Below, one piece after another: positions 9,925 to 63,776 of a stretch of 64,000 nucleotides of DNA; position 1 is the first letter of the stretch, and each line of letters starts with the position of its first letter. Origin of the DNA: Levilactobacillus humaensis (GTDB lineage Bacteria > Bacillota > Bacilli > Lactobacillales > Lactobacillaceae); contig NZ_BROB01000002.1 of assembly GCF_024345185.1 (NCBI RefSeq), forward strand, positions 1-64,000, written 5' to 3'. The notes below the pieces were generated by a model. It searched no databases. It worked only from the letters and a program-made list of their open reading frames with translations, and was not told the DNA's origin. The translations under genes and the position numbers were made by a program.

Positions 9925-10085
9925 CCCCGCCAGCTCGCGGCTGACAGGGCTGGAACGGGGTGGACACGACTTGAAGCCTTTCAAAAACCGAAAGTCTCCC
10001 AGCTCGGCCTTTACCTAACCGACGAAAACCACGCCGCTAAGGCAAACGACACACCTGAGCCCTGTCAGCCACAAGCTGGCGCCAC
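9925..10085 (+). repeat. family I cloverleaf repeat, copy 1 (subtype C)
   Basis: Closing stem of 13 perfect bp (9939-9951 with 10058-10070), flanked by a further 7-bp pair GCCAGCT/AGCTGGC (9929-9935, 10074-10080). Inside are the ACTTGAAGCC...AAAGTC arm and a CTAA-containing arm. Subtype C is recognised by GGCTGGAACG after the first stem strand and ACGAC...CTGAGCC before the second. The sense orientation follows the yagU-like gene. Confidence 0.85.
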
Positions 10086-10249
10086 ACGGTGTGGTGACTG
10101 ATAAACTTGAATCCTGGCAACGTTAGTGCAAAACGTCCGCTGACACTTGCAGTAATTGAGAACTAACATTAATTGACCGGTAACGCCATCCGCATTGCCA
10201 TACCAAGCATCTCACATTCAGCCGGTTTAATCACACCACTAATCTAAGT

Positions 10250-10420
10250 CACAGGTGGTCAGGGGCAGAGTCCCGTGTCGAGGCTGTTAGGTCGGTGGTT
10301 TCCCGGCCTTACAGCCTGGGACGTCTTGAAGACCCGGTTCATGGGGCTTCGAGGCGAGGCCGAAGACCGTACTTTGGCTTCGACCGTGCCCCACAGGACG
10401 GCGCTCCTGACCACCTGCGA
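10250..10420 (-). repeat. family I cloverleaf repeat, copy 2 (subtype E)
   Basis: Closing stem CAGGTGGTCAGG / CCTGACCACCTG (10252-10263, 10406-10417; 12 perfect bp). Arms: AGGCTGT/ACAGCCT (10281-10287, 10311-10317) with an internal TTAG/CTTA loop, the TCTTGAAGAC arm, and CGAAG/CTTCG. It lies immediately upstream of the GPH symporter. Its sense strand is minus, so with copy 1 it forms an inverted pair about 165 bp apart. The symporter frame runs open backwards into this repeat, which is not coding. Confidence 0.85.
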
Positions 10421-10466
10421 CGTTCCATTTAAAACAACTTTGATTCAACCGCTTGGAGGCGATGCA

Positions 10467-11795
10467 ATGAACAAACCTTGGCAAACCAAGTGGCCCGAGC
10501 GCCTGAGCTACGGTCTAAGTGACGCGGCAGATAACTTGGTCTTTCAGATGATGACCACCTACCTGCTGTTCTTTTACACCGACGTTTACGGACTGACCGC
10601 TAGTGCGGCCGCGATTCTCTTCGTGGTGGCGCGGCTGGCCGACGTCGTCGAGAGTCTCATCATCGGCCTCATGATTGACCGCACCCATTCGAAGTGGGGC
10701 AAGAGCCGCCCGTTCTTTCTGTGGTACGCGCTTCCCTATGTCATCTTTGCCATCCTCACCTTCGTGACACCGCCATTTGGCGATAACGGTAAACTCGTCT
10801 GGGCCTACGTCACCTATCTGGGACTGGGCTTTCTCTACACGGCGGTCAATCTGCCGATCACGTCGATTCTCCCCACCATGACGGAAAACGATCAGGAACA
10901 AACTGTGTTAGGCGTCATTCGCCAGTTCTGCGGGAGTTCCGTTCAAATCATCGTGGCGGTCTTCACCCTGCCACTGGTGGCACTATTCGGCCATGGCAAC
11001 CAACAACGCGGTTTTCTCTTAACCATCGTGTTGTTCGGCGCCATTTCGCTGGTCCTCATCTGGAACACCTTCATTCATGTCCGCGAACGTTTCACCAATC
11101 CCGAGCACGCTCACCAGTCTTGGCGGGCCGTGGGCGGCATGTTGAAGCAGAACAAACCGTGGCTGGTCATCTCCGTAGTCATTCTGTTGTATTGGTTGAC
11201 CACTGCAATTAAGAATCAGACCACCATTTACTATTTCAAATACATTCAAAATAATGAACAACTGGTTCCGTACGCCAACGCCTTCACCTTTGCGGCTTTA
11301 ATCGGCGTGCTGTTAATCGTCCGTTTCTCCAATCGTTGGGGCAAGAAGCGCACGATGCTAACGGGCATTCTAGTCGCCGCAATTGGCCAGCTAATCCTCA
11401 GTCTGGGCGCTGTCGGCAATCTGTTGCCGGTCATCTTCACTGGCACCCTCATCAACTCCGTGGGAAATGGTCTCATCATTGGCCTCGTCTCTATCATGAT
11501 CGCCGACACGATTCGTTATGGGATGGCGATGGGCATTCAAGCCGAGGGTATCCTGGCCTCGACCGATGACTTCGGCGTCAACGTCGGTTTGGGCCTGGGC
11601 GGTTTAATCACTGCCGGTCTCTTTCACCTGTCTGGCTACGCGGCCAACCACGCCCAGAATGGCGCCACGCAACACATGATCCTCTTGAATTATGCTTGGC
11701 TACCGCTGATCCTCTACGTCGTGATGTTCGCGATGCTCCTGCTGTACAACGAACGCGAACTGCAGGCGAAGATTCAACCAGATATTCAAGATTAA
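10467..11795 (+). CDS. GPH-family sugar:cation symporter
   Basis: A 442-aa permease of the glycoside-pentoside-hexuronide family within the major facilitator superfamily; 12 membrane helices are visible. The N terminus carries the family signature LSYGLSDAADNLVFQ and FFYTDVYGL, and loop 2-3 has the cation-site region DRTHSKWGKSRPF. Substrate cannot be read from sequence (beta-glucosides, xylosides and galactosides are usual). The start is ATG 10467, with SD GGAGG 7 nt upstream; longer open reading upstream lies inside a repeat. The C terminus has no IIA domain, unlike LacS. A family I repeat and a bidirectional terminator follow. Confidence 0.9.
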   Translation: MNKPWQTKWPERLSYGLSDAADNLVFQMMTTYLLFFYTDVYGLTASAAAILFVVARLADVVESLIIGLMIDRTHSKWGKSRPFFLWYALPYVIFAILTFVTPPFGDNGKLVWAYVTYLGLGFLYTAVNLPITSILPTMTENDQEQTVLGVIRQFCGSSVQIIVAVFTLPLVALFGHGNQQRGFLLTIVLFGAISLVLIWNTFIHVRERFTNPEHAHQSWRAVGGMLKQNKPWLVISVVILLYWLTTAIKNQTTIYYFKYIQNNEQLVPYANAFTFAALIGVLLIVRFSNRWGKKRTMLTGILVAAIGQLILSLGAVGNLLPVIFTGTLINSVGNGLIIGLVSIMIADTIRYGMAMGIQAEGILASTDDFGVNVGLGLGGLITAGLFHLSGYAANHAQNGATQHMILLNYAWLPLILYVVMFAMLLLYNERELQAKIQPDIQD

Positions 11796-11899
11796 CCCTC
11801 ATACTAGTACTAACGAAATTCGGGGCAAATTTTTCGCATGTTTTGGCAAAATAAATTATTAAATACCAGATTAATTCCAAGATTCGGCGACGTGGTGGT

Positions 11900-12070
11900 T
11901 CAGTCGCCTACCGGCCGGCAGATATAGGCTGGAACGGTGCGAACACAACTTGAAGCCTCGAAGTTCACGAGTCTCCAAGCTTGGTTTTCTCCTAAGCCAG
12001 TGAGAAGACCACTCCCTGACTAAGGAGAACGACGCGCCTGAGCCTATATCTGCCGACCTCACGGCTAAGA
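11900..12070 (+). repeat. family I cloverleaf repeat, copy 3 (subtype C)
   Basis: Closing stem of 15 perfect bp CGGCAGATATAGGCT / AGCCTATATCTGCCG (11916-11930, 12041-12055). Arm c is TTCTCCT/AGGAGAA, where copy 7 has TTTCACT/AGTGAAA, a clear compensatory change. It lies about 105 bp past the symporter stop and before the terminator at 12143. Confidence 0.88.
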
Positions 12071-12142
12071 CGGTGCACTGCGGCAACACCCATTCGAAAA
12101 CAGCAAAATTGGCAATAGCTATCTCAAAGAATCAGAAAATCA

Positions 12143-12195
12143 AAAAGATCGGCAAGTATGACCCGGATAATCAGGTTGTACTTGCCGATATTTTT
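12143..12195. terminator. bidirectional terminator
   Basis: Perfect 11-bp stem ATCGGCAAGTA / TACTTGCCGAT (12148-12158, 12179-12189), with T runs on both sides in the corresponding directions. It would end the symporter transcript, so copy 3 of the cloverleaf repeat would be in that 3' UTR. Confidence 0.85.
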
Positions 12196-12243
12196 GACAT
12201 TATTAGGAATTAGAACAAATCGTCGTGGATACGATCAGACATA

Positions 12244-12426
12244 GCCGGAGGAGGCCAGGGATGGAGCCGGCCGTGGAGGTAGCGTTAGACCGAGTGACTT
12301 TCTCGGCCTTACGCTACGGGCGACTTTGAAGACCCGCGCCCCTGGCGGGGCTTCAAATCGAGCGAGAAGCCCAAGGGGCTGAAGCGTCCCCACAGCAGGC
12401 GGAATCCCTGGCAGCCGCAGGCGGCC
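12244..12426 (-). repeat. family I cloverleaf repeat, copy 4 (subtype A)
   Basis: Full subtype A copy, sense on minus strand. Closing stem GCCAGGGAT/ATCCCTGGC (12254-12262, 12404-12412), arm c GTAGCGT/ACGCTAC (12279-12285, 12311-12317), arm b TTTGAAG-x-CCCGC / GCGGG-GC-TTCAAA, arm a AGCCC/GGGCT. It is downstream of the marR stop and terminator. Confidence 0.9.
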
Positions 12427-12466
12427 AATCCTAATCTAACCTCAGCAAAATACAACCAAGAGATCA

Positions 12467-12500
12467 CAAAGAAGGACTATGCCTAATTAGCACAGTCCTC
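12467..12500 (-). terminator. marR terminator
   Basis: Stem AGGACTGTGC / GCATAGTCCT with one mismatch, followed by TCTTTG on the minus strand, 21 bp past the marR stop. Confidence 0.7.
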
Positions 12501-12520
12501 ATCTTTATGATTTATCCTAA

Positions 12521-13063
12521 TTAATCCTGAGTCGTGGTGTGACGCGTGCGGCCACGGTTGGAGTTCCGGCGCTTATCATGTAAGCTGTCGAAACCAACGA
12601 AGCCTGCCGCAACGGCCCGTTCGTTGGCCCGGTGGAGCACCTTGATAAAGTGTTCCGCTTCATCCTTGCCAAAGAAGCCTAACCAGCGGTGGAACCGTTC
12701 GTCCGTCGCCTGAGCCAAGTTCCGTTGAACCCGACTACCCGCAGCCGTCAAAGTAATGTACTTGACCCGGCGGTCATTAGGATCGACCTTCTGCATCACG
12801 TAGTTTTCCTTCAACAACACGTTAACTTGACGAGCAATGGCACTCTTCGAAACGCCTTCAAGCTTGGCCAGTTCCACCAACGTCTGCCCGTTCTTACTCC
12901 GCGCAACGTTTTCCATCACCATGAAGGCTTCAAAAGTCAAATTATACTTTTGGGTGGGAATCGAAACAAAATCCCCGATGTACTTGAAGATGTGCATGTA
13001 CAAGTCATCAAATTGTTTCTTTAATTCTGCTTCCGTAACGTTTTCGTTTGTCGTCTCTGTCAT
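12521..13063 (-). CDS. MarR-family transcriptional regulator
   Basis: A 180-aa winged-helix regulator. Recognition region about residues 55-100 (TLVELAKLEGVSKSAIARQVNVL) and wing DPNDRRVKYITLTAAG, both typical of MarR. The C-terminal tail of about 25 residues is basic and low complexity (DKRRNSNRGRTRH), an extension beyond the usual 140-150 aa. Divergent from an 81-residue protein; the shared 250-bp gap holds a palindrome over the divergent promoter, so autoregulation and control of the small gene are likely. The inducer is unknown. Confidence 0.9.
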   Translation of the reverse strand: MTETTNENVTEAELKKQFDDLYMHIFKYIGDFVSIPTQKYNLTFEAFMVMENVARSKNGQTLVELAKLEGVSKSAIARQVNVLLKENYVMQKVDPNDRRVKYITLTAAGSRVQRNLAQATDERFHRWLGFFGKDEAEHFIKVLHRANERAVAAGFVGFDSLHDKRRNSNRGRTRHTTTQD

Positions 13064-13251
13064 TATAAATCCATTACTCCTTCTAGTTCAGCGCGGGGCG
13101 CTGCCATTTACCGTCCTAAATTGGATACAGCCTACGGGACTTAATTTTAGCCGATAAAACGCCCGTCGTCACCGGTCAAAAGATTCAAAGTGGATAACCA
13201 TACTTATATTTTATAGATAAAGTAACTAATCCAGTAATATTATAGTTATGA

Positions 13252-13280
13252 TTGGCAAAATAGAACATATGTTCTATAAT
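13252..13280 (+). promoter_or_regulatory. promoter with palindromic operator (MarR-type)
   Basis: -35 TTGGCA (13252-13257) and -10 TATAAT (13275-13280), 17-bp spacer. The perfect 14-nt palindrome AGAACATATGTTCT (13262-13275) fills the spacer and touches the -10. A weaker minus-strand promoter for marR (TTACTG, 16 bp, TATAAA) lies about 13219-13246. Assignment of the palindrome to the neighbouring MarR protein is inference. Confidence 0.65.
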
Positions 13281-13313
13281 AGGATCAATCTCCTGACCAA
13301 GGATGTGACATGA

Positions 13314-13559
13314 ATGTTAGACTATACACCACAAAAAATTCGGCTCCTACTCCAAACCGCTTACCAAAAAAATCAGCTCACCACAGTCACTTACCGTGGC
13401 GTTACCAAAACGGGAACCGTTGACTTCGTGACTGCCAGCACCGTTTATCTCGGTTTAGCGGCCGGCCGTTCTCGTGAAATTCCCCTGACCCAGATCAGCC
13501 AAGTCAAACTACACCAATTACAATCTTGGTGGTATCTTTATGATTCTTCCGCACAGTAA
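13314..13559 (+). CDS. small hypothetical protein
   Basis: An 81-aa protein, ATG 13314 with AAGGA 10 nt upstream. Predicted short helix (residues 5-20) followed by beta strands (TVTYRGVTKTGTVDFV, TVYLGLAAG, REIPLTQISQVKL), suggesting an Sm- or SH3-like barrel; this fold guess is from pattern only. Not recognised as a named family. It is driven by the promoter at 13252-13280 and is probably controlled by the divergent MarR protein. Confidence 0.7.
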   Translation: MLDYTPQKIRLLLQTAYQKNQLTTVTYRGVTKTGTVDFVTASTVYLGLAAGRSREIPLTQISQVKLHQLQSWWYLYDSSAQ

Positions 13560-13898
13560 CTTCCTCTAGTATCGCCTCTTCTGCCTAAAAAATAAACCCC
13601 TTTTTTGTAAATTGTTTGTTTTTTCTTTACAATTCGAAGAAAACGCTGTCTTCTGCATGCCACCTTACTTTGTTTCATGTTGACAAATCAACAAAAGCCG
13701 ACCAGTTGGTTCTCAAAATGGACCAATTTAGTTGGTGGAACGCCCCAGTTAACGTCCATTTTTTAATAACTATTGGTCAAAACTGATAATGACCATAAAA
13801 CTTGCATAGTTTGATTCATTCGAGGGGGATCACCTCGTCATTCTTCCACACGCAAATCGGGTCAGGACAATTGTCCTGACCCGATTCTTTATATCTAT
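13560..13898. other. convergent intergenic region with long perfect palindrome
   Basis: Between two convergent genes. It contains a perfect 32-nt palindrome (13855-13886, half-site AATCGGGTCAGGACAA) just past the stop of the DUF4097 gene, and a weaker hairpin CGAGG/CCTCG (13821-13837). Flanking T runs are short, so it may be a weak bidirectional terminator. No coding frame and neither dispersed repeat family is seen. Confidence 0.6.
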
Positions 13899-15317
13899 TT
13901 AAATAATCTCTACTGTCCCTTGTTTACTATCCACAGTAACTGTCGCCGCGGGATTCTCCCCGACAGTTCCAATCTTATGGTGCCGGTCATCTAACGTGAA
14001 GTGGGCGTCACGAGGTGCTCGTACCGTGCCATCTTCATTGCGCAGGTCGAATTGGTAACTCTGGTCTGCTGGAACTTCTAAGCTCACGTTGCCGTGGCTC
14101 TGGACCTTGATATTGCCGGTCACTTCAGCGTTGACGCGACCATTCTTGGCCCGAATGTCGCCATCCCCGCTGAGCCCTTTGACACGGACCCCACCATTGC
14201 GGGCGATACACGTCAACTGACCGTCAACGCCATCGACCCGGATGCCACCATTCCGTGAATTCAAATGAATATCACCGGTCTGATCAGTCACCCGGATGGC
14301 GCCATTTATAGTGTCAACCGACCCTTTTCCGGTCAGTCGACCCAGCATTACCGCGCCATTGTCGGCCTTAATTTCGTAGATTGTGCTCTTCAGATCGTCA
14401 ATCTTGATGGCCCCATTGGTCGCGGTGAGATCGAGTCGTTCAACACCGGTATGGAAGATCCGCACCCGACCGTTAGTGGCGTGGGCCGCCAGGAAAATGG
14501 CACTCTGGAAGTCACTCATTTCGAGGCTCCCATTACCTGCCTCCACCGTGACGCGTCCCGTCAAAACGGCAGGCAATAGAATTTCTACCCGAATATGCAC
14601 GGGCCAGAGACGGGGACGTTCGCCCTGTTGAATGGTCAGCATATCCCCGACACGCGTTGCCCGCAGGTGAAAGCGATCGTTGTCGCGGCTCATATACTCA
14701 TTCACCACGATATTCTCACCGCTGGCCGCGCCGAGTTTAACGGCGGCATCGCGATAGTCAATCGCCACGTTAGCCAGGTCGGTCACCGCAAAGGTCTGGG
14801 TGTTGACCAGCTTCAGCGAGGTCACAATCGTCCGTTCCGGCTCCTGGCCGTTGACCGTGACGTGATCCCCGTTGACGTCAATCAGACCGTTAGCGACGGA
14901 AACGTGGTCGCCTTCCACCTGAACCAAACTCCCGAGATCCACCTTATCCTTGTCGTTATCCACAAGGACGTGGTCGCCCCAAGTCACTTGATCGTCGGTG
15001 ATGTGGAGCTTACCAACGTGAACGCTGGACTGAGAACTGTGCTTCGTCTTGGATTCACTTTGCCGATTGTGCCCGGTCGTGCTCTGACGCTCACTGTCTT
15101 CGGCCACTTCTTTGAGGAGGCTGTCGAGATCGCCAATCTGGTTAACGGCTTCATCAATTGCCTTGTCCGGCTGCATACCGTCGTTGACGCGTTCTGAGAC
15201 GGCTTCGGTCAGGTCGCCCACTAATTCTTCCTTGAGTTCCGTCAAAGCTCGCGATGGCGTGTAGTTGCTAAATAACTGGTCCAAACGCGTCCGAATTTCC
15301 ATTGTAATATCGTCCAT
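13899..15317 (-). CDS. DUF4097-type beta-helix protein with DUF1700-like N terminus
   Basis: A 472-aa protein. Residues 1-75 are a helical domain (LDQLFSNYTPSRALTELKEELVGDL...EAVNQIGD) resembling the N terminus of HAAS/DUF1700 proteins encoded with PadR regulators. A polar linker follows, and residues about 165-470 form a repeated beta structure with recurring NG/DG turns (ATNGRVRIF, ATNGAIKI, ADNGAVML, NGAIRVTD, NGGIRVDG, NGGVRVKG), the putative adhesin (DUF4097) pattern. No signal peptide or membrane helix is evident. It begins 2 bp after padR, a classic two-gene stress-response arrangement. Confidence 0.85.
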   Translation of the reverse strand: MDDITMEIRTRLDQLFSNYTPSRALTELKEELVGDLTEAVSERVNDGMQPDKAIDEAVNQIGDLDSLLKEVAEDSERQSTTGHNRQSESKTKHSSQSSVHVGKLHITDDQVTWGDHVLVDNDKDKVDLGSLVQVEGDHVSVANGLIDVNGDHVTVNGQEPERTIVTSLKLVNTQTFAVTDLANVAIDYRDAAVKLGAASGENIVVNEYMSRDNDRFHLRATRVGDMLTIQQGERPRLWPVHIRVEILLPAVLTGRVTVEAGNGSLEMSDFQSAIFLAAHATNGRVRIFHTGVERLDLTATNGAIKIDDLKSTIYEIKADNGAVMLGRLTGKGSVDTINGAIRVTDQTGDIHLNSRNGGIRVDGVDGQLTCIARNGGVRVKGLSGDGDIRAKNGRVNAEVTGNIKVQSHGNVSLEVPADQSYQFDLRNEDGTVRAPRDAHFTLDDRHHKIGTVGENPAATVTVDSKQGTVEII

Positions 15318-15319
15318 AA

Positions 15320-15670: not shown

Positions 15671-15704
15671 GCCGCCACTTCCTTCCTTTTGCTTGCATAT
15701 AATG

Positions 15705-15740
15705 TATCACATACTACTGTGTGTGTCAAAGTAGTATGTG
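15705..15740 (-). promoter_or_regulatory. padR promoter with inverted-repeat operator
   Basis: Arms CACATACTAC (15708-15717) and GTAGTATGTG (15731-15740), a perfect 10-bp inverted repeat. It brackets the minus-strand -35 TTGACA and reaches toward a -10-like TACATT after a 17-bp spacer. The position and symmetry suit PadR binding. Confidence 0.65.
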
Positions 15741-16442: not shown

Positions 16443-16465
16443 TGCTGTTTGACTGTGTCGAAAAA

Positions 16466-16660
16466 GTCCGCCTGCGGCTGACAGGGGTTACGCCTGCTGT
16501 GGGGAACGCCTCCAGCCTGAGGGACAGGCTTCCGGCTCGCTTTGAAGCCCCGCCAAGGACGCGGGTCTCCAAAGTCGTCCCATGCTGTAAGACCGGGAAG
16601 GCCCTAGCGCCCGGCCTAACACCATCGACACGGCTGGCTCCACCCCTGTCCTCCTCCGGC
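16466..16660 (+). repeat. family I cloverleaf repeat, copy 5 (subtype A)
   Basis: Sense copy 24 bp after lepB. The closing stem is GACAGGGGT/ACCCCTGTC (16480-16488, 16642-16650), where most subtype A copies have GCCAGGGAT/ATCCCTGGC: compensatory changes at several positions. Arm a AGCCTG/CAGGCT. Arm c (ATGCTGT/ACACCAT) has one mismatch. Confidence 0.88.
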
Positions 16661-16964
16661 TATTGTGGTGCTTAATTGCCACAACTGTTCGAGACCAGGA
16701 CCATTACTTGTCTGCTGGTCAAATTCCATTCACGAATGACCTAATAATCTTCAATTTACAACCAACTAATAAGCCATCAGTTTTTGCATTCTAGCAAGAT
16801 ACTGGCGGCTTTTCGTGTGCACAATTGTGGATACTGGAGCCTTCACAATGTATGACCTTGGACATGACCGCCAGACCCACCTGAAAGGCAAAAAACGTGG
16901 CTTCTGCGAAAACTAATCCTACTGGTGCATGCCAACATCTATCTGGCTTGAACGTCACCACCAA
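16661..16964. other. spacer between inverted cloverleaf copies, no gene seen
   Basis: About 300 bp between copies 5 and 6, in the gap between convergent lepB and oleate hydratase genes. Only a weak hairpin (GACCAG/CTGGTC near 16694-16720) is visible and no T run follows it. Confidence 0.4.
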
Positions 16965-17144
16965 GCCGAAGGAGGCCAGGGATGGAGCCGGCCGTGGTGG
17001 TAGCGTTAGACCGAGTGACTTTCTCGGCCTTACGCTACGGGCGAATTTGAAGACACGTGGTTTTCGTGGCTTCAAATCGAGCGAGAAGCCCAAGGGGCTG
17101 AAGCGTCCCCACAGCAGGCGGAATCCCTGGCAGCCGCAGGCGGC
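16965..17144 (-). repeat. family I cloverleaf repeat, copy 6 (subtype A)
   Basis: Sense on minus strand, downstream of oleate hydratase and its terminator. Arm b is CACG/CGTG, where copy 4 has CCCGC/GCGGG within otherwise near-identical sequence: a direct compensatory pair change. One end reads GCCGAAGG instead of GCCGGAGG. Confidence 0.9.
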
Positions 17145-17157
17145 TGTTTTAGCAGAT

Positions 17158-19214: not shown

Positions 19215-19336
19215 AAGAGTGTCAAAAAAGGCGATTAGTCAATGAGCATTAACGTCGATAATCGGGCAATCCCGGGCTTGGATTGTTTGATTATCGGGGT
19301 TAATCGGAGTTGACTGCCTTTTTTGACACGTTTCGG
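19215..19336 (+). repeat. family II hairpin repeat, copy 1
   Basis: Family II: about 123-bp hairpin, AAGAGTG-[P1]-...-GAGCATTAAC-[P3]-GTTAAnCGGAG-[P2']-[P1']-CGTTTCG. Here P1 is GTGTCAAAAAAGGC/GCCTTTTTTGACAC (19219-19232, 19316-19329, 14 perfect bp). P2 is AGTCAA/TTGACT, and P3 is GATAATC/GATTATC with the conserved tip ending CCCGGGCTTGG. It lies between the terminator of the secreted-protein gene and the ohyA promoter. Confidence 0.85.
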
Positions 19337-19360
19337 CCATATAAACTCAACCGCCCCTAC

Positions 19361-20341: not shown

Positions 20342-20395
20342 ACTTGTCGTTCTAATGATTTAATGGGTTTTAAGGTTTAGAGCTACTGGAGATCA

Positions 20396-20558
20396 GGCCT
20401 CCGGGCGGTTGCTCAGAGGGCTGGAACGTTGTGGCCACGATTTGAAGCCCAGCGCCCAAACCGCGCAGGTCTTCAAACTCGGGCTTTCACTAGGCTAGGA
20501 AAACCACCCAGCTAAGTGAAACGACACGACTGAGCCCTCTGAGCAACCACCCTCCGGC
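20396..20558 (+). repeat. family I cloverleaf repeat, copy 7 (subtype C)
   Basis: The longest perfect subtype C closing stem, 16 bp GGTTGCTCAGAGGGCT / AGCCCTCTGAGCAACC (20407-20422, 20533-20548). Arm c TTTCACT/AGTGAAA. It lies antisense to the acyltransferase transcript and forms an inverted pair with copy 8, 150 bp away. Confidence 0.88.
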
Positions 20559-20709
20559 AAAGATCCAGCATTGCCAAAGCGAAGAGTTGCATTGACCAAT
20601 TGCGAAAACACATTGCCAATTTACTGGCATCAGTAATTGACTAACATCAGCCAGCCATCAACAATCCCCGTTCACTCTCGAATACGATAACTAACAACAC
20701 ACAATCTCA

Positions 20710-20885
20710 GCCGGAGGAAACCAGACAGAACCCCCGTGTCGGTGGTCTTAGCCGAGGTTTTCTCTCGGCTTAGAGCACGGTCAACTTTGAAACTCGTGAT
20801 TTTCGAGGTTCAAGGTTGCCCTGAAGACCGCTTTTCAGGCTTCAGGTCTGCCTCATGGGGGTTCTGTCTGGTTACCGCAGGCGAC
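20710..20885 (-). repeat. family I cloverleaf repeat, copy 8 (subtype B)
   Basis: Closing stem of 17 perfect bp AACCAGACAGAACCCCC / GGGGGTTCTGTCTGGTT (20719-20735, 20857-20873). Arm b CTTTGAA-A-CTCG/CGAG-G-TTCAAGG. It ends 17 bp from the acyltransferase stop, in the sense orientation. Confidence 0.9.
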
Positions 20886-20902
20886 CCAACCCAATCTCAC
20901 AC

Positions 20903-22939: not shown

Positions 22940-23260
22940 TAATAGAGTCAACGACTAAGCCAATCGGCTTAAATATTGTTCCGCCGGGTGATCGTTAACC
23001 CCATCTAAGTAGCTTCATTCTATAATGTTTTCCATTAGGAAACAACGCTTTTACTCGAAATTTCAAAATTGTAAAATTTGACACTCGACCGACACATCCT
23101 TGGTCAAAAATCCCCCGGCAATTCATGGGATCTTAGGCGATGTTGGTTAGTTCAATGACCATTCACAAACGCTAACCGTGAAATCATTTTCGGCTAATAT
23201 CTCCCACCCTTACGGCCGCCCGACTCATGGTATACTAAACTCATATCAACCGACGTTGTT

Positions 23261-23432
23261 GGCCTGCGGTAAACAGACGCCACCCGGTGAGGCAAACCTG
23301 AAACCTGAAAAGCGGTCTTCAGGGCAACTTTGAACCTCGAAGAACCCGAGTTTCAAAGTTGGCCGTGCTCTAAGTCGAGACAGAACCTCGACTAAGACCA
23401 CCGACACGGGGTTCTGTCTGTTTACCTCCGGC
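23261..23432 (+). repeat. family I cloverleaf repeat, copy 9 (subtype B)
   Basis: Closing stem core GGTAAACAGAC / GTCTGTTTACC (23268-23278, 23416-23426), where the other subtype B copies have different pairs at the same place. Ends GGCCTGCGG...CCTCCGGC. It lies in the divergent gap between the acyltransferase and adenosine deaminase genes, probably in the adenosine deaminase 5' UTR. Confidence 0.88.
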
Positions 23433-23449
23433 CTACCGGGTTACGTTCA

Positions 23450-27417: not shown

Positions 27418-27446
27418 GGTTGGGATTTGAATATTGCGATAAAAAG

Positions 27447-27509
27447 GCCGCCTGCGGCTGCCAGGGATTAAGCCTGCTGTGGGGACGCTTCAGCCTAGAA
27501 ACCAGGCTT
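27447..27509 (+). repeat. family I cloverleaf repeat, copy 10, truncated
   Basis: Only the first third of a subtype A element: conserved end, first strand of the closing stem (GCCAGGGAT) and arm a (AGCCT...AGGCT). It stops at 27509 and unrelated DNA follows, so the closing stem has no partner. It lies 30 bp past the L,D-transpeptidase terminator, in sense orientation. The flank beginning GATCCAGCATT also occurs beside copy 7. Confidence 0.88.
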
Positions 27510-31942: not shown

Positions 31943-31968
31943 CCATTTGTAAAAGTTCATCAATCTAA

Positions 31969-32154
31969 GCCGTAGGGTGGGTGAAAATGGGCTCAGCCGT
32001 GGGAATTCCCTTAGCGGCGAACTTGGCCGCTTAGGGAATTGGCGCCTTTGAAACGCGCTTCTCAGCGGTTCAAAGCGAGCGCGAAGACCGCCCTTTGGCT
32101 TCGGGCGTCCGCCCACAGCGTCCCAGCCCATTTTCACCCGCCCGGAGGCGCGGG
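31969..32154 (-). repeat. family I cloverleaf repeat, copy 11 (subtype D)
   Basis: Closing stem 15 perfect bp GGGTGAAAATGGGCT / AGCCCATTTTCACCC (31979-31993, 32125-32139). Arm c AATTCCCT-T-AGCGGC / GCCGCT-T-AGGGAATT (32004-32018, 32026-32040) is nearly perfect with the recurring TTAG/CTTA opposition. Arm b CTTTGAA-A-CGC/GCG-G-TTCAAAG. It begins 28 bp past the amidohydrolase stop, sense. Confidence 0.9.
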
Positions 32155-32182
32155 CATCACGCCCTGCTCACCACAACTACAA

Positions 32183-34771: not shown

Positions 34772-34853
34772 AGTTTTTCTCCTTTAATTAGATAACGATT
34801 TAAGCGATCAATTCTAGCAACCGCCGACTCACATCTTTGTCACGATCACTGTC

Positions 34854-35041
34854 AGCCGGGAGGGTGGTGAAAATAAGCCCAGCCGTGGGAATTCTCTTAG
34901 TGGCGTTCTGTGCCGCTTAGAGAATTGGCGTCTTTGAAACGCGTTCCTCAGCGGTTCAAAGCGAGCCCGAAGACCGCTCTTTGGCTTCGGGCGTCCGCCC
35001 ACAGCGTTCCAGCTTATTTTCACCGCCCGGAAGGCGCGGTC
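34854..35041 (-). repeat. family I cloverleaf repeat, copy 12 (subtype D)
   Basis: Closing stem GGTGAAAATAAGC / GCTTATTTTCACC (34866-34878, 35012-35024; 13 perfect bp). Compared with copy 11, GGGCT/AGCCC becomes AAGC/GCTT, and arm c CCC/GGG becomes CTC/GAG: paired substitutions. It ends 4 bp from the DUF2255 stop codon, in sense orientation. Confidence 0.9.
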
Positions 35042-43576: not shown

Positions 43577-43706
43577 TTGAATGACCTCTTTCTTTTTAGT
43601 ATCACATCACACGCAACTGAAAATTATTCTGACACGCCCAGTAACGCAACACACCAATCCAACATTAGGATTGATCCCTACACCACGAGAACTAGGTTTA
43701 ACGCCA

Positions 43707-43882
43707 GCCGGAGGCAACCGGACAGAACCCCCGTGTCGGTGGTCTTAGTCGAGGTTTTGTCTCGACTTAGAGCACGGCCAGCTTTGAAACTCGTGGTTTT
43801 CGAGGTTCAAGGTTGCCCTGAAGACCGCCCTTCAGGCTTCAGGTCTGCCCCATGGGGGTTCTGTCTGGTTGCCGCAGGCGAC
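43707..43882 (-). repeat. family I cloverleaf repeat, copy 13 (subtype B)
   Basis: Closing stem of 18 nt CAACCGGACAGAACCCCC / GGGGGTTCTGTCTGGTTG (43715-43732, 43854-43871) with one G:T wobble. It is very similar to copy 8 with paired differences. One of the few copies between divergent genes (CoA-disulfide reductase and ABC exporter), upstream of both. Confidence 0.9.
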
Positions 43883-43926
43883 CTTTTGATCTTAATTTTA
43901 GTATACCCTAATGTAACCGTTTCCCG

Positions 43927-47298: not shown

Positions 47299-47320
47299 TC
47301 TTGTTATTAAGAACAAGAAG

Positions 47321-47506
47321 GCCGCCTGCGGCTGCCAGGGATTACGCCTGCTGTGGGGACGCTTCAGCCTGGGAACCAGGCTTCTCGCTCGATTTGAAGC
47401 CTCGCCAAGAACGCGAGTTTTCAAAGTCGCCCGTGATGTAAGGCCGAGAAAATCACTCGGTCTAACATCACCGCCACGGCTGGCTCCATCCCTGGCCTCC
47501 TCCGGC
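47321..47506 (+). repeat. family I cloverleaf repeat, copy 14 (subtype A reference)
   Basis: Best copy for describing the family. Conserved ends GCCGCCTGCGGC and CCTCCTCCGGC; closing stem GCCAGGGAT/ATCCCTGGC (47334-47342, 47488-47496); arm a AGCCTGG-GAA-CCAGGCT; arm b TTTGAA...CTCG/CGAG...TTCAAA; arm c GTGATGT/ACATCAC (47433-47439, 47465-47471) with inner CCGAG/CTCGG. Sense, 22 bp after the permease stop and before the terminator at 47598. Confidence 0.93.
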
Positions 47507-47597
47507 TATGTTGGTGCTTTCTGGCAACGTTGTTGGAAGCATGGTGACTTTTGCTTAGCATGCGTAACCTACAATTAATCTATTCAATTTTACTTTT

Positions 47598-47627: not shown

Positions 47628-47637
47628 CATTTACGTG

Positions 47638-47760
47638 GTCGAAACGTGTGCCCAAGGGCAGCTGGCTCCGCTTAACCCCGCTAAGAAAATCATCCAAGCC
47701 CGGGATGATTCTCTTAGCGACGTTAATGCTCGACGACTAAGCGCCCTCCGGCACACTCTT
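47638..47760 (-). repeat. family II hairpin repeat, copy 3
   Basis: P1 GTGTGCC..AGGGC/GCCCT..GGCACAC (2 mismatches in the middle), P3 CGCTAAGA/TCTTAGCG then ATCATCC/GGATGAT, tip CCAAGCCCGGG. P2 (AGCTGG opposite CGACT) is imperfect here. It lies between the exporter terminator and the dacA terminator. Confidence 0.85.
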
Positions 47761-51925: not shown

Positions 51926-51956
51926 CATTGGGTTAATTGATTTAAAGATGTAGAAG

Positions 51957-52142
51957 GCCGCCTGCGGCTGCCAGGGATTACGCCTGCTGTGGGGACGCTT
52001 CAGCCCGGGGACCAGGCTTCTCGCTCGATTTGAAGCCTCACCAAAAGCGCGAGTCTTCAAAGTCGCCCGTGATGTAAGGCCGAGAAAATCGCTCGGTCTT
52101 ACATCACCGCCACGGCTGGCTCCATCCCTGGCCTCCTCCGGC
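51957..52142 (+). repeat. family I cloverleaf repeat, copy 15 (subtype A)
   Basis: Sense, 32 bp after copB and before the terminator at 52215. Almost identical to copy 14, with small changes in arm loops: arm a CCCGGGGACCAGG against CCTGGGAACCAGG, arm c inner loop AAAATCG. Confidence 0.92.
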
Positions 52143-52214
52143 TCACACTGACGGTCAATGCTAGTCAGTAGTCGTTGGGTGAACAATATCCGCAACCTAA
52201 TTAAAATCAAATTC

Positions 52215-53628: not shown

Positions 53629-53636
53629 TTTAAGTT

Positions 53637-56187: not shown

Positions 56188-56210
56188 CTGAGTTGCTTTG
56201 AATTTACATT

Positions 56211-56333
56211 GTCGAAACGTGTGAAGAAGGGCAGTCGACTCCGCTTAACCCCGCTAAGAAAATCATCCAAGACCGGGATGATTCTCTTAGCGACGTTAAT
56301 GCTCGACGACTAAGCGCCCTTTTTCACACTCTT
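56211..56333 (-). repeat. family II hairpin repeat, copy 4
   Basis: P1 GTGTGAAGAAGGGC/GCCCTTTTTCACAC (56219-56232, 56316-56329; one wobble), P2 AGTCG/CGACT, P3 CGCTAAGA/TCTTAGCG, tip CCAAGACCGGG. Its end touches the stop codon of the gene at 56334. Confidence 0.88.
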
Positions 56334-57341: not shown

Positions 57342-57390
57342 AGTCTCCTCCTCCGAAACGCAAACGACTTTTTCTAATTCTGACGATAGC

Positions 57391-58812: not shown

Positions 58813-59037
58813 AGTGCTCCGCCTCCTTTGCTTTAAGTATAGGATTATCGGGTGCTAAGAGCCAGCGTATTTTGTAAAATAGTCACAAATGTTGCCGGTG
58901 CCGATCGTGATAGTCCTGAATACTTAGCGGCTACGTTTAGAATGATCGGTGACCTAACAGCAGTTGCACTGGAATCCCGATGTATCTATACTGAATCTAA
59001 TTCTAAAATTAACCCCAATTCAAGGAGGTAAAACCGC

Positions 59038-59376
59038 ATGACCACGACGCAAATGAAACTCGCGGCCGACCAATTCGACCTTATGGCAGCCGGCACCAAA
59101 ACCATTGAAATTCGCCTCCATGATCCCAAACGCCAGGCCATTCGGGTCGGCGATGTGATTCGCTTCGTTAATCTCGCCGATGCCAGACGGGTTCTGGAAA
59201 AACAAGTCCGTGGCTATCGGTTATTCCCAACCTTTGCGGCCCTCTATCAAGCCTATTCTCCAGTTAGCGTGGGAAGTCAGCCGATGGACAGTGTGGACCA
59301 GATGGTACAGGCAACCTATACGATTTATACGCCGGAACAGGAACGCCGGTGGGGTGTGATGGCGATTGAATTTTGA
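59038..59376 (+). CDS. ASCH-domain protein
   Basis: A 112-aa protein with the ASCH (PUA-like) fold: MKLAADQFDLMAAGTKTIEIRL (start of the domain with the GxKxxExR-like pattern, GTKTIEIR), VGDVIRFVNL and YTPEQERRWGVMAIEF. ASCH proteins bind RNA or act as small amidohydrolases. SD AAGGAGG precedes ATG. Followed by a bidirectional terminator. Confidence 0.9.
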   Translation: MTTTQMKLAADQFDLMAAGTKTIEIRLHDPKRQAIRVGDVIRFVNLADARRVLEKQVRGYRLFPTFAALYQAYSPVSVGSQPMDSVDQMVQATYTIYTPEQERRWGVMAIEF

Positions 59377-59390
59377 CTGGCTTGCACGCA

Positions 59391-59433
59391 AAAAGAGAGG
59401 GACTGTGGTGATTGCCACGGTCCCTCTCTTCTT
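59391..59433. terminator. bidirectional terminator
   Basis: Stem AGAGAGGGACTGTGG / CCACGGTCCCTCTCT (one wobble), T-rich plus-strand side and T run on the minus strand. Ends the ASCH gene and the P-type ATPase gene. Confidence 0.9.
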
Positions 59434-59446
59434 TGAATTTATATGG

Positions 59447-59568
59447 TCGAAACGTGTGACAGCGGGCAGCTGGCTCCGCTTAAGCCTGATAACCACCTAA
59501 TCCAAGTGCGGGATTAGGTGGTTATCAGGCTTAATGCTCACCGACTACCGCCCGCTGTCACACTCTTA
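59447..59568 (-). repeat. family II hairpin repeat, copy 5
   Basis: P1 GTGTGACAGCGGGC/GCCCGCTGTCACAC (14 perfect bp); P3 GCCTGATAACCACCTAATCC with the matching GGATTAGGTGGTTATCAGGC, a 20-bp perfect stem; tip CCAAGTGCGGG. Its end overlaps the stop codon of the P-type ATPase at 59566-59568. Confidence 0.9.
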
Positions 59569-62313
59569 AATATTTCGTTGTTCTCTCTGAACAATACTAT
59601 TATCCAACCGATGGCGAATTGCCTTGGCAATTTCCGTCACGATGAGGACGACTGCCCCCGCCATGATTGGGATTCCCCAACCATAGTGGAAGTTAACCGA
59701 CGTGGTGTGGAAGACACTCTGCATGGCTGGCCAGTAAATAATGCCGGCCTGTAGAACCAACAGAATGGCCACAATCACGAAGCTCATCTTGTTGCGGAAG
59801 AAGTACTTCGACAGAACCGGGTGATCATTTTGCAAGTTGAAGAGGTAGAAGACCTTCCCGAAGATGATGACGTTTAACGTCATGGTACTGCCGATGACGG
59901 CCGACAATCCTTGGGACGTCAGGAGGTCGTAGGCAAACATCCCCAGCCCTGAAATCAGGAGGGAGACGTAGGCCACCTCAAACATATCAAGCTTCGATAA
60001 AATCCCGCGGGTGACATCTCGGGGCCCCCGCTTCATGATCCCACTCTCGGCAGGCTCGAAGATAAAGGCGAACTGGATCGTCAAGGCGGACACCATGTTA
60101 ATCCACAACAGTTGTGTTGGGAACAGTGGCAGCTCTTGATCCATCAGGATACTGAGGACCACGATTAGCCCTTCGGCAAAACTAGTTGGCAAGAGGAATC
60201 GAATCGTTTTACGAATGTTATCGAAGACGTGGCGACCCTCACGGACGGCCCCCAGGATCGAGGTGAAGTCATCATCGGCCAGCACCATATCGGCGGAGTC
60301 CTTGGCGACGTCGGTTCCCCGAATCCCCATGGCGACCCCAATATCGGCTTGCTTCAAGGCAGGCGCATCGTTGACCCCGTCACCGGTCATGGAAACCACA
60401 TGACCCCGCTGTTGCTGCGCCTTCACGATCCGTAATTTATCGGCGGGGGTGGTCCGGGCAAACACCGTGTACTGGTCAATCTTAGCGGCCAATTCGTCGT
60501 CACTCAATTGTGCCAACTCAGGTCCGGTAATGGCCTTCGCCTTTTCGGACAGGTTCAACTGCTGGGCAATTGCGGCCGCGGTCTCGGGGTCATCCCCCGT
60601 GATCATCTTAACCTTGATTCCGGCATAGCGGAGTTGCTTAACGGCATCCGCCACCCCAGGACGTGGGGGATCAATGATCCCCGCCATCCCGGCCAGATGG
60701 AAGTTCTGCCCGATAGGCAGGTCATCCACTTCATCGGCGTCGGCTGCCACAGGTTGATACCCTAAGGCGACAACCCGTTTCCCCTGTTGCGTCAACTGAG
60801 AAATCCGCGCTTGCCAGGCGTCTTGATCGACGGTCTGGCCTTGATCAGTCATCAAACGCATCAGGGTTTGTGGCGCCCCCTTAACCAGCAAATACCGTTG
60901 GTCACGGTGGTCTACCAGTCGTGCAGAATAACGAATGGCCGAATCGAATGGCAATGAGTCAATCTCCTGGGGTGCGGGATCGGTGCCGACTAGCTTGTGG
61001 TACAGCGCGGTCAAGGCCCCATCGGTTGGCTCTCCGGTCAGAACCCACTGCCCATCTTCCTCATGGAACTGGGCGTCGGAGGTCTGGCCGGCAATCTGAA
61101 CCAACCACTCGAGGTCGGTATCGTCACGCCAGGCCACCGTCTGGCCTTCGTCATTTTCAACCTGGCCGGTCGCGTCGTACCCGACACCGGAAACGGTGTA
61201 GGTGTCAGCGGCGGTCAGCACATCCGTCACGGTCATTTCATTTTTCGTCAACGTCCCGGTCTTGTCGGTGTTAACAATGTCGACGGCCCCAAGAGTTTCC
61301 ACGGCGGGTAACGTCTTCACAATCACATTCTGCTTGGTCATCGCCTGCGTTCCCATGGCCAGGACCACCGACGTACTAGCCGGCAGACCTTCGGGCATCG
61401 AGCCCACCACCATCGTAATCACGGCAATCAACAAGGTTGGTAGGCTGTAAACGTGGGTAATCATCCCCAGGATAAAGAGCAAGACTGCCGCCACCAAGAT
61501 GGCAATCGACAGACCAAGCCCCAAGCCATTGAGGTTCTGCATTAGAGGTGTTTGTTGTTGCTTAACTTCGGCCACGTTCTGTTGGATATGACCGATCTCG
61601 GTGTCGGCACCCGTCACCGTCACAATACCTCGGCCGGACCCACTGGTCACGGCCGTCGAGGCGAAGGCCTGGTTCGACCGTTCGGCCAGCGCTAGATTAG
61701 CGTCGGGTAAGGGATCCTCGCCCTTGTTGACCGAGTCGGTTTCCCCAGTTAGCGCAGATTCCTGAATCTTCAGGTTATCTGCATCGATCAGCCGCAGGTC
61801 GGCAGGCACGGTATCCCCTGCCTCCAGCTGGACGATATCTCCCTTCACCAATTCACGGGAAGGTAGCGTGATCTTCTGACCATCGCGAAAGACGACGGCC
61901 TCGGAGACCAGCAGGGCCTTAATTTTATCGAGGGCGTTATCCGCCGATTTTTCTTGGAAGTAACCGATAAAGGCGTTCGCGATAATCACCAGTCCGATAA
62001 CGATTGAGTCGGAGTAGTGGTGCATGAAGAAGGTGAGCAAGGCGGCACCCGCCAGGATATAGATGATACTGTTGTTGAACTGTTTCAAGAAACGTAAGAG
62101 GTTCGATTGTTTCTTAGCGGTCAACTCGTTAGGCCCGTCCGCACGCAGTCTTTGCTGCGCCTCGTCGGTCGTGAGCCCGGCATCCCTATCGGTAGCGAAT
62201 TCGGTTAACAGATCTGATGTTGATTTTTGCCAAAGCGACTCCTGACTGGGTCCAGGGTCGGTGGTTTCAGTTTCGGTGGTCGTGGTGACAGTTGCTTCTG
62301 TTTCTTGTGCCAT
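59566..62313 (-). CDS. cation-transporting P-type ATPase (P2 type)
   Basis: A 915-aa ion pump of the Ca2+/Na+-type P2 subfamily: acidic, Thr-rich N-terminal extension (1-25), cation-ATPase N domain (WQKSTSDLLTEFATDRDAGLT), actuator LTGETDSVNKG, ion-site helix SMPEGLPAST, phosphorylation site NTDKTGTLTKNEM, hinge MTGDGVNDAPALKQADIG, and four C-terminal helices (about 690-900). The ion is unknown; PEGL suggests calcium or a related cation. The stop codon is shared with a family II hairpin. Confidence 0.93.
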   Translation of the reverse strand: MAQETEATVTTTTETETTDPGPSQESLWQKSTSDLLTEFATDRDAGLTTDEAQQRLRADGPNELTAKKQSNLLRFLKQFNNSIIYILAGAALLTFFMHHYSDSIVIGLVIIANAFIGYFQEKSADNALDKIKALLVSEAVVFRDGQKITLPSRELVKGDIVQLEAGDTVPADLRLIDADNLKIQESALTGETDSVNKGEDPLPDANLALAERSNQAFASTAVTSGSGRGIVTVTGADTEIGHIQQNVAEVKQQQTPLMQNLNGLGLGLSIAILVAAVLLFILGMITHVYSLPTLLIAVITMVVGSMPEGLPASTSVVLAMGTQAMTKQNVIVKTLPAVETLGAVDIVNTDKTGTLTKNEMTVTDVLTAADTYTVSGVGYDATGQVENDEGQTVAWRDDTDLEWLVQIAGQTSDAQFHEEDGQWVLTGEPTDGALTALYHKLVGTDPAPQEIDSLPFDSAIRYSARLVDHRDQRYLLVKGAPQTLMRLMTDQGQTVDQDAWQARISQLTQQGKRVVALGYQPVAADADEVDDLPIGQNFHLAGMAGIIDPPRPGVADAVKQLRYAGIKVKMITGDDPETAAAIAQQLNLSEKAKAITGPELAQLSDDELAAKIDQYTVFARTTPADKLRIVKAQQQRGHVVSMTGDGVNDAPALKQADIGVAMGIRGTDVAKDSADMVLADDDFTSILGAVREGRHVFDNIRKTIRFLLPTSFAEGLIVVLSILMDQELPLFPTQLLWINMVSALTIQFAFIFEPAESGIMKRGPRDVTRGILSKLDMFEVAYVSLLISGLGMFAYDLLTSQGLSAVIGSTMTLNVIIFGKVFYLFNLQNDHPVLSKYFFRNKMSFVIVAILLVLQAGIIYWPAMQSVFHTTSVNFHYGWGIPIMAGAVVLIVTEIAKAIRHRLDNSIVQREQRNI

Positions 62314-62587
62314 GTAATGGGGTCATCCTTTCTTAGATGAAATAAATTTAGCGGTCAGGAATTGGGAGTGCAATCAAACGGTCGTGCAAGACGTCCACCT
62401 CCAGTTTTAATGTTAAGTTAATTAATTCTACCAAGGTTTTTAAACAATTGCACCCAATTAGCGGGTAATGCAATCTAAATTTAACATATAGACGTAACCA
62501 ATAGGGGTGCTAACCAAATGAATGGCTTTCCCTTTCGGCGTGCTTCCCCTAAGATAGAACTAACTCTAAAGAATAGGACTGATTGCG
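62314..62587. other. divergent promoter region
   Basis: Between the P-type ATPase and the quinone-oxidoreductase-like gene. AT-rich, with an imperfect inverted repeat ATTGCACCC / GGGTAATGCAAT (about 62444-62472) that could be an operator. Confidence 0.4.
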
Positions 62588-63577
62588 ATGCAAGCATGGA
62601 CAATTATGGGACACGGTCCTCACGACCTTGACGATGTCCGGCAATTAGAAATTGCCACCCCCACTCCGGGACCTGGTGAACTGCTCATCCAGGTGGGCGC
62701 GGTAGGTCTGAACCCAGCCGACTACAAGGTCATTGAGAATGGCACCTGGAATGACCCGCACGTCATCGGCATGGATGCTGCGGGTATTGTGGCGGGACTT
62801 GGTCGCGGCGTCACCGACTTTACTGTGGGTGATCGGGTCTTCTATCACGGTGATCTCCGCCGAGCTGGGAGCCTGGCCACCTACACGATCACCACGAGTC
62901 AAAGTGTGGCCCACCTGCCGGTCAACGTCAGTCTGGATGCGGCCGCTGCGAGTCTATGCGGCACCCTGACAGCCTACCAGGCCTTGCACCGCAAGGCGAA
63001 CTTGACCACCGCTAAAAGTGTGTTGATTCACGCTGGGGGCGGTGCCGTCGGGCTGGCCGCCTTACAATTTGCCCACCAACTTGGCCTCCAAACGATCACA
63101 ACCACCTCTGACCGTAAGCGCGCTCTAGTTGAACGCGTCGGGGCAGACGTCATCATTGACTATCATCAAACTGATGTCACCCAGGCTGTCTTGGCTGCCA
63201 CCAACGGCCGTGGTGTCGACGTCAGCCTCAATACGCTCGGAGGTGAGACCATAGCTGAAGATGTCGTCAGAATGGCCTACAACGGCCAAATTATCGCCAT
63301 TGGCGACGGGATGCCGGCCCACTTCGACTTCGACGCCCGGGCCCTGAGCCTGAGTCGTTCCGGGTTGGGTGGCGTCTACCGTTCCGCGGATCCCGTGGGT
63401 ATCCACGATCTGGCCGTCATGGCGACCGCAGTTGGCAAACAACTGGCTAGCGGCACGCTTGATCCGGTAATTGGAGCCACCCTGTCCTTTAACCAGGCTG
63501 TCATTGGGTTAAAGCATCTGAAGCATGACGAAAACCTGGGGAAATTGGTGGTTCATGTGGATAGTTCGCTTAAATAA
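62588..63577 (+). CDS. zinc-independent MDR/quinone oxidoreductase-like protein
   Basis: A 329-aa medium-chain dehydrogenase/reductase: GroES-like N domain (PGPGELLIQVGAVGLNPADYKVIE), DAAGIV in the usual place, and the nucleotide motif HAGGGAVGLAALQFA. No zinc-ligand Cys/His set, so it is a quinone oxidoreductase or enoyl-reductase type using NADPH. Probably detoxifies quinones or reactive carbonyls. Single gene; a cloverleaf repeat begins 18 bp past the stop. Confidence 0.9.
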   Translation: MQAWTIMGHGPHDLDDVRQLEIATPTPGPGELLIQVGAVGLNPADYKVIENGTWNDPHVIGMDAAGIVAGLGRGVTDFTVGDRVFYHGDLRRAGSLATYTITTSQSVAHLPVNVSLDAAAASLCGTLTAYQALHRKANLTTAKSVLIHAGGGAVGLAALQFAHQLGLQTITTTSDRKRALVERVGADVIIDYHQTDVTQAVLAATNGRGVDVSLNTLGGETIAEDVVRMAYNGQIIAIGDGMPAHFDFDARALSLSRSGLGGVYRSADPVGIHDLAVMATAVGKQLASGTLDPVIGATLSFNQAVIGLKHLKHDENLGKLVVHVDSSLK

Positions 63578-63594
63578 TTAGAAACGCTAAAAAG

Positions 63595-63776
63595 GCCGCC
63601 TGCGGCTGCCAGGGATTACGCCTGCTGTGGGGACGCTTCAGCCCTTTGGGCTTCTCGCTCGATTTGAAGCCCCGCCAAGAACGCGAGTCTCCAAAGTCGC
63701 CCGTACTGTAAGGCCGAGAAAAACACTCGGTCTAACAGTACCGCCACGGCTGGCTCCATCCCTGACCTCCTCCGGC
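63595..63776 (+). repeat. family I cloverleaf repeat, copy 16 (subtype A)
   Basis: Sense, 18 bp after the stop codon and before the terminator at 63928. Arm a AGCCC-TTT-GGGCT (copy 14: AGCCTGG/CCAGGCT) and arm c GTACTGT/ACAGTAC (copy 14: GTGATGT/ACATCAC) are compensated; the closing stem reads GCCAGGGAT/ATCCCTGAC. Confidence 0.92.

Follow-up and report, generated by a model that had tools for sequence, protein, structure and literature searches.

A 64,000-nucleotide stretch of the Levilactobacillus humaensis genome (contig NZ_BROB01000002.1, positions 1 to 64,000; hereafter the window) was found to carry sixteen copies of a cloverleaf repeat. These repeats are probably the cores of small, gene-less transposable elements of Lactobacillaceae, similar to miniature inverted-repeat transposable elements (MITEs), that have been kept as folded DNA after insertion. 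An earlier note on the window had pointed out sixteen such repeats and suggested a structured RNA or a mobile element of the single-stranded DNA type; its observation is confirmed and its interpretation is partly supported. A covariance model (R1), built from a MAFFT alignment of 40 own-genome copies, matched 15 elements in the window (E-values of 7.5e-41 to 6.8e-12), and the sixteenth is a truncated copy of 69 nt. Twelve of the 15 are seed sequences of R1 and so match by construction; the independent matches are three two-arm copies outside the seed set (starting at 9927, 11900 and 20391; E 1.4e-15 to 6.8e-12). The repeats, which fall into several related types (named T1, T6, T5, TX and TY), were also found by repeat search and blastn.

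A cut-and-paste (DDE-type) transposon is marked by terminal inverted repeats together with 7-9 bp duplications of the target, and both marks were found around the cloverleaf in related genomes. In genome G014, repetition extends beyond the cloverleaf itself, taking in a conserved spacer, outer flanks that are likewise conserved, and inverted ends. Some units in relatives are bounded by a 14-bp terminal inverted repeat, CTRAARGTTGAAAG. Ends with at most one mismatch to this repeat were detected 54 times in 3.14 Mb, some of them at overlapping loci, compared to about 4 expected with even base use (8 by a cruder chance formula). The ends form 15 pairs spanning 180-927 bp, with genera g1, g55 and g21 represented among them, and perfect direct repeats of 7-9 bp flank nine of these pairs, as against 3 of 210 mismatched flanks. 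One or two clear R1 matches are enclosed by 13 of the 15 pairs: two facing cloverleaves in seven (L024, L030, L036, L042, L176, L190 and L197; 557-637 bp) and one in six (L029, L031, L098, L100, L168 and L179; 294-393 bp). The pair of L037 is a 180-bp remnant with a partial cloverleaf and no R1 match, and that of L196 is doubtful. The complete unit in other species consists of the 14-bp inverted repeat, about 30-70 nt, a cloverleaf, a spacer, a facing cloverleaf, about 60 nt and the inverted repeat. No transposase gene was found inside 14 of the pairs (180-637 bp; longest open stretch 122 codons), as judged by length rather than by translation search; the longest open stretch in the doubtful 927-bp pair is 177 codons. 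Insertion, presumably catalysed by a transposase supplied in trans, would have duplicated 7-9 bp of the target. One insertion is common to L. yonginensis (L031) and L. tongjiangensis (L036), in which the duplication TTTGTTA lies just past the hairpin after dacA. The L. yonginensis insertion holds a single cloverleaf and that of L. tongjiangensis two; the differing copy, either gained or lost, lies between two CTAAT repeats. In the terminal-repeat-bounded unit at L029:13524-13916, about 38 nt close to where the cloverleaf starts are tandemly repeated.

The alignment of the 40 own-genome copies revealed a terminal stem closing three arms. This fold, as described in the earlier note, holds for T1, T6, T5 and TX, but TY has no clear arm a; likewise, the conserved ends reported there, GCCTGCGG and CCTCCGGC, are present in most T1 and T6 copies but not in many TX, T5 and TY copies. 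Stem sequences vary freely, and the fixed letters include CTGTGGGG, AAGCC...GTCT, GTAAG...CTAAC and CACGG, some of which are unpaired inside arms and conserved in over 90% of copies. Covariation was scored on RNAalifold pairs with arm a added by hand, and is strong relative to shuffled and slid controls both in the own copies and across genera, as the note had proposed to examine. In the 40 own copies, two-sided changes were detected in 34 of 45 pairs, and compensatory cells numbered 267, compared to 72.5 after shuffling and 27-58 after sliding; by the count of further pair types, which was the weakest measure, 17 of 500 shuffles did as well. For 50 copies from 20 stretches of other genera (at least one of them an opposite-strand match), in an alignment fitted to R1 and hence biased towards the structure, 92.4% of cells were paired, 43 of 45 pairs had two-sided changes, and compensatory cells numbered 582 versus 154.5 shuffled and 77-132 slid. 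At two shared sites (L065:14398-14582 versus L119:14443-14630, and window 10245-10427 versus L086:5110-5295), TX copies were observed with differing yet largely complementary stems and 73-75% identity, as if the stems turned over fast or one copy had replaced another.

Compensatory changes are usually held to prove a functional RNA. In this family, no sign of RNA-like wobble tolerance accompanies them, and it is therefore a test case for DNA versus RNA structure. A folded RNA tolerates G.U pairs and does not tolerate A.C pairs; since G.T on one strand is A.C on the other, equal cost is expected of a structure formed on both strands (a cruciform). Pair cells were counted in 222 elements with a gene on each side, leaving out one column that was mostly G.U, and comprised 8046 Watson-Crick, 223 G.U, 251 A.C and 544 other cells, a G.U/A.C ratio of 0.89. 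The ratio was 1.15 (54 versus 47) where both neighbour genes run along the F strand (the orientation that reads GCCTGCGG first), 0.75 (43 versus 57) where both run against it, 0.84 between convergent genes and 0.89 between divergent ones; split by presumed replication strand, it was 1.0 (leading) or 0.85 (lagging). By contrast, 24 of the 38 distinct tRNAs of the same genome gave 30 G.U and 5 A.C, a ratio of 6, by a rough pairing that left 36 of 288 cells in neither class. That G.U is no commoner than A.C, unlike in tRNA, argues for DNA folded on both strands, and the cloverleaf shape is apparently maintained at the level of folded DNA and not of RNA. After insertion, the cloverleaf may have been retained because what is read there is double-stranded DNA in folded form, a cruciform in which both strands form hairpins; by analogy with the bacterial interspersed mosaic elements (BIMEs) of enterobacteria, this would most likely be a protein-binding or insulating site at gene ends.

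The placement of the copies was examined relative to genes and to each other. None of the 222 elements lies inside a long open reading frame (ORF), where ORFs overlapping an element were counted only if longer than 900 nt. In the own genome, 51 of 73 copies follow a same-strand gene, at a median of 43 nt past its end. Of 96 neighbours less than 450 bp apart, 87 face each other, the other 9 are in line and none are back to back; in this count, the levi set includes some regions twice (L023 overlaps L080). Outside facing pairs, inverted repeats were detected at 14 of 85 pairs versus 12 of 253 shuffled, few with duplications. The flanks of single copies had a complementary duplex energy of -15.3 compared to -13.4 when shuffled, which could mean that they belonged to an older outer stem or that the element inserted into a hairpin.

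Sister species that differ in whether a given site carries the element provide a natural experiment on its function. A protein search with DacA places the host in Levilactobacillus, the best matches being those of L. huananensis (97%), L. paucivorans (96%) and L. lindianensis (94%). Each of the 11 measurable intergenic regions, two of which hold only a second repeat family (see below), is reduced in length in L. huananensis relative to the window (e.g., 152 versus 586, 242 versus 726, 316 versus 855 and 259 versus 436 bp); some other relatives have longer, unrelated inserts in the regions compared. By eye, L. huananensis has 5' stubs at L065:6076, L065:10930 and L060:5551, and none was seen at L065:18331 and L060:8151; a piece of the element at window 47318 is also kept. 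The stubs indicate that the ancestors had elements whose cores were deleted. A solo GGCC-N6-GGCT in genome G008, together with element ends that are imperfect direct repeats, suits deletion by slippage. Orthologous copies were compared between G000 and either G008 or G032, with pairs filtered by locus to remove repeat-to-repeat mispairings. By this approach, 19 of 24 comparisons were 90-98% identical in aligned columns; the other five were 62-83% identical, one being wrongly paired (L065:10930, unrelated flanks). Third codon positions of 14 window genes, as far as matched, were 71% (G008) and 78% (G032) identical, and the flanks of the elements 73% (3') and 85% (5'). In comparisons above 80% identity, the per-site difference of the stems was 3.7%; double changes numbered 8 (7 from Watson-Crick to Watson-Crick) versus 1.1 expected, beside 43 single changes. 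Strong retention in sister species and near-total loss in L. huananensis suggest a function with a partner. SbcD, a palindrome-cutting nuclease, was considered as the cause of the loss and was rejected, as it is present in 35 of 35 genus genomes. As a separate observation, G008:C1:34200-54078 and G032:C114:3247-23125 give matches to L065 that are equal in length and almost equal in score, and the two genomes differ in identity to the window (87% and 90-93% in the best pieces); this likeness at L065 may reflect either recent exchange between species or mixed assemblies.

We considered whether the cloverleaf is instead maintained as RNA or without function. As an RNA, the repeat would be a small RNA or part of a 3' untranslated region whose transcript folds in the F orientation and is under selection; this would be in line with the position of most own copies downstream of same-strand genes, the strong covariation and the slow evolution at orthologous sites. 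The ratios by gene direction also differ as RNA would predict, but the difference is small, in no gene context is G.U tolerated better than A.C, and 88 of the 222 copies do not follow a same-strand gene. Moreover, the 4227 Rfam families gave no match in the window at gathering score, and Rfam at relaxed E-value gave nothing of weight at any element of L058 and L065; microRNA models gave two weak hits (E 0.64 and 4.3), both overlapping a single TY copy. The structured RNA suggested by the earlier note is thus unlikely, and an RNA gene or riboswitch was rejected on these Rfam scans and the G.U/A.C test, while the note's view of the family as unrecognised, with a conserved cloverleaf, holds. Neutral correction of quasi-palindromes, in which intrastrand template switching perfects stems that have no function, would leave Watson-Crick-only covariation without strand preference, as observed. 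It is nevertheless a very unlikely source of the fold: letters conserved in over 90% of copies include unpaired positions inside arms, and orthologues differ mostly one-sidedly (43 single versus 8 double changes), so that pairs are not mended at once.

Movement by a single-strand (HUH) transposase of the IS200/RAYT type, as for a REPIN, would agree with the facing palindromic pairs near gene ends and with conserved mismatches inside arms, but appears highly improbable. Of the 35 genus genomes, 12 have no match to Y1 transposase (PF01797), yet nine of these (including G002 and G032) contain 62-75 element matches each, and L. huananensis (G031) has five Y1 matches and one element match; HUH elements are not known to make 7-9 bp target duplications, such as were found at nine of the 15 units. 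An IS200/RAYT mobiliser was therefore rejected, as the distribution of PF01797 does not follow the element, and Y1 transposase does not fit as a partner either. Accordingly, of the mobile element of single-stranded DNA type in the earlier note, mobility is retained, on the evidence of relatives, and an IS200/REP-type system is not. It is possible, though we are inclined to doubt it, that the repeat is a domesticated chromosomal element whose cruciform binds a host protein (with a gyrase-, SMC- or terminator-like role), and that L. huananensis lost this partner and then the cores. Conservation at orthologous loci, strand symmetry, the uneven contig spread and the near-complete loss in L. huananensis, with 5' stubs at three inspected sites, speak for domestication. 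However, no partner was found (SbcD is present throughout the genus), single copies have been lost in G008 and G032 too, and the clear transposon units indicate that the element is not only domesticated. Domestication and a transposon origin are not exclusive. A rather more speculative proposal joins them: a folded-DNA cloverleaf would have spread by transposition and then been selected via a host factor that was lost in L. huananensis, the covariation being a record of DNA structure.

Several observations weigh against cores of MITE-like transposons kept as folded DNA. Six of the 15 CTRAARGTTGAAAG pairs have no perfect duplication. In the own genome, none of 76 elements has CTRAARGTTGAAAG with up to three mismatches in the preceding 130 nt (the best had at least four, and a reversed control was alike), such that the transposon reading of the own copies rests on relatives; the outer ends would no longer be recognisable in this genome, with only cores left, and the T1 copies might move another way. 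No autonomous partner was noticed in 3.14 Mb, where pairs up to 4 kb apart were considered and no whole-genome end search was made, and the missing plasmid matches (see below) are unusual for an active transposon. Conservation of the inserted cores exceeds what a plain MITE needs. This conservation is itself overstated, since only copies still detected in both genomes compared were counted; other copies are missing in G008 or G032, and three of the 19 well-conserved comparisons have 45-78 gap columns. Finally, strand symmetry is equally expected if both strands are transcribed.

The spread of the element was surveyed with R1. With 150 of 573 candidates scored, the own genome has at least 137 matches at E up to 1e-3 in 2.37 Mb; the density of about one copy per 4 kb given in the earlier note therefore applies to the window, and is lower genome-wide. 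Among the matches listed, contigs C2, C19, C10 and C20 carry 19, 18, 14 and 12, and C1, C7, C9, C14 and C15 carry none. Within the genus, 34 of 35 genomes have matches and 21 have at least 75; the fewest are in G021 (0), L. huananensis (1), G015 (10), G012 (30) and G034 (45). The search of other Lactobacillaceae that the note had called for found matches in 76 of 301 family genomes and 10 of 40 genera, with at most 8 candidates scored per genome and some carriers represented by a single weak match; confinement to one genus, an impression from blastn, was thus ruled out. A survey of 295 genomes of the order (family f1 included) gave 11 carriers in f1, and the lone match outside was one weak match in family f2 (E 2.5e-4). 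The window is 51.8% G+C, and in low-G+C stretches (L100-L102, L110 and L111; 34-39% G+C) the copies are 39-54% G+C. No blastn match was detected for six elements in 72,556 plasmid records, where blastn is a blunt tool, or for one element queried against phages; two patterns gave 4 and 0 stretches of viral contigs, and R1 only 20-24 nt fragments in three of the four. Plasmid or phage carriage was rejected on the basis of these searches. In 40 of 43 stretches of G014 (one per 60 kb), copies are clustered, and no clear origin-terminus axis was apparent. A literature search found no description of this cloverleaf element, and the accessible portions of PMC2267715, PMC2965389 and PMC5217627 do not describe one. 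Thus, more than 100 copies of an element for which neither an Rfam entry nor a description was found adjoin genes of lactobacilli, including the food species L. brevis.

The family was compared with known systems. Like MITEs, of which RUP of pneumococcus is an example, it is short, gene-less, high in copy number and, as far as seen, outside genes, and its complete units have terminal inverted repeats and target duplications. Unlike MITEs, it has covarying internal modules common to several genera, most copies seen (including all 76 own copies tested) are without recognisable terminal repeats, and no parent insertion sequence is known. Repetitive extragenic palindromes (REPs), BIMEs and REPINs, with RAYT, occur in enterobacteria and pseudomonads. 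In these, too, palindromic units are paired in inverted orientation close to gene ends, non-pairs are conserved and the location is chromosomal, but the units are short hairpins, whereas the present family has two- or three-arm units of 150-200 bp with target duplications and no Y1 transposase association. BOX and SPRITE are modular, structured, intergenic repeats of a Lactobacillales species, Streptococcus pneumoniae, and are similar in each of these respects (by description, not sequence); the cloverleaf family differs in its inverted pairs and cloverleaf. Rfam families likewise include covarying multibranch folds, but none gave a match of weight in the scans described above. The accessible portion of PMC3049150 presents BOX and RUP as repeats of S. 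pneumoniae, and that of PMC2965389 states that BIMEs act as terminators. Two scans for terminators adjoining the cloverleaf elements gave mixed results and were not used.

Table 1. Cloverleaf copies of the window, parts of the copy at 63592, and target duplications of units in relatives.
Feature	Location	Strand	Evidence and remarks
TY cloverleaf, two-arm	9927..10079	+	R1 E 1.4e-15; faces 10245-10427
TX cloverleaf, three arms	10245..10427	-	R1 E 7.5e-41
TY cloverleaf, two-arm	11900..12068	+	R1 E 3.1e-12; faces 12241-12428
T1 cloverleaf	12241..12428	-	R1 E 3.7e-35; same site in G008 has solo GGCC-N6-GGCT only (by eye)
T1 cloverleaf	16464..16663	+	R1 E 9e-38; ~20 nt past ORF end; faces 16962-17147
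T1 cloverleaf	16962..17147	-	R1 E 2.8e-36
TY cloverleaf, two-arm	20391..20561	+	R1 E 6.8e-12; faces 20707-20888
T6 cloverleaf	20707..20888	-	R1 E 8.8e-40
T6 cloverleaf	23256..23435	+	R1 E 4.6e-37
Truncated T1 copy, 5' 69 nt only	27441..27509	+	Repeat search, blastn
T5 cloverleaf	31966..32155	-	R1 E 3.3e-24
T5 cloverleaf	34852..35040	-	R1 E 2.7e-24
T6 cloverleaf	43704..43885	-	R1 E 3.9e-39; absent from the corresponding L. huananensis site (259 bp, compared to 436 bp in the window)
T1 cloverleaf	47318..47509	+	R1 E 8.5e-37; ~20 nt past ORF end
T1 cloverleaf	51954..52145	+	R1 E 1.9e-35; ~29 nt past ORF end; same site in L. huananensis has GGCC-N6-GGCT alone (by eye)
T1 cloverleaf	63592..63779	+	R1 E 6.5e-36
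Terminal stem 5' side, GGCC-GCCTGC-GGCT ... CTGTGGGG (copy 63592)	63592..63632	+	40-copy alignment
Arm a (copy 63592)	63635..63657	+	40-copy alignment
Arm b, TTTGAAGCC...GTCTCCAAA (copy 63592)	63662..63696	+	40-copy alignment
Arm c, GTACTGTAAG...CTAACAGTAC (copy 63592)	63703..63741	+	40-copy alignment
Terminal stem 3' side, CACGG ... CTCCTCCGGCT (copy 63592)	63744..63777	+	40-copy alignment
Target duplication TTAAAGATA	L029
Target duplication CTGTATAA	L030
Target duplication ATAGAAAA	L037
Target duplication TTGACTAA	L098, genus g55
Target duplication TTATTTAT	L190

Strand in the window refers to the F orientation, as used in the earlier note, and coordinates are given with the lower one first. 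The 40 seed copies of R1 were taken from the window and 20 stretches of the same genome, mostly picked around T1 matches.

A second repeat family of about 130 bp, for which no blastn relation to the cloverleaf family was seen, forms a single long hairpin (GTGTG...CACAC). It has 8 matches in the window and own-genome stretches, including window positions 19230-19345 (-), 47630-47760, 56203-56333 and 59438-59567 (+).

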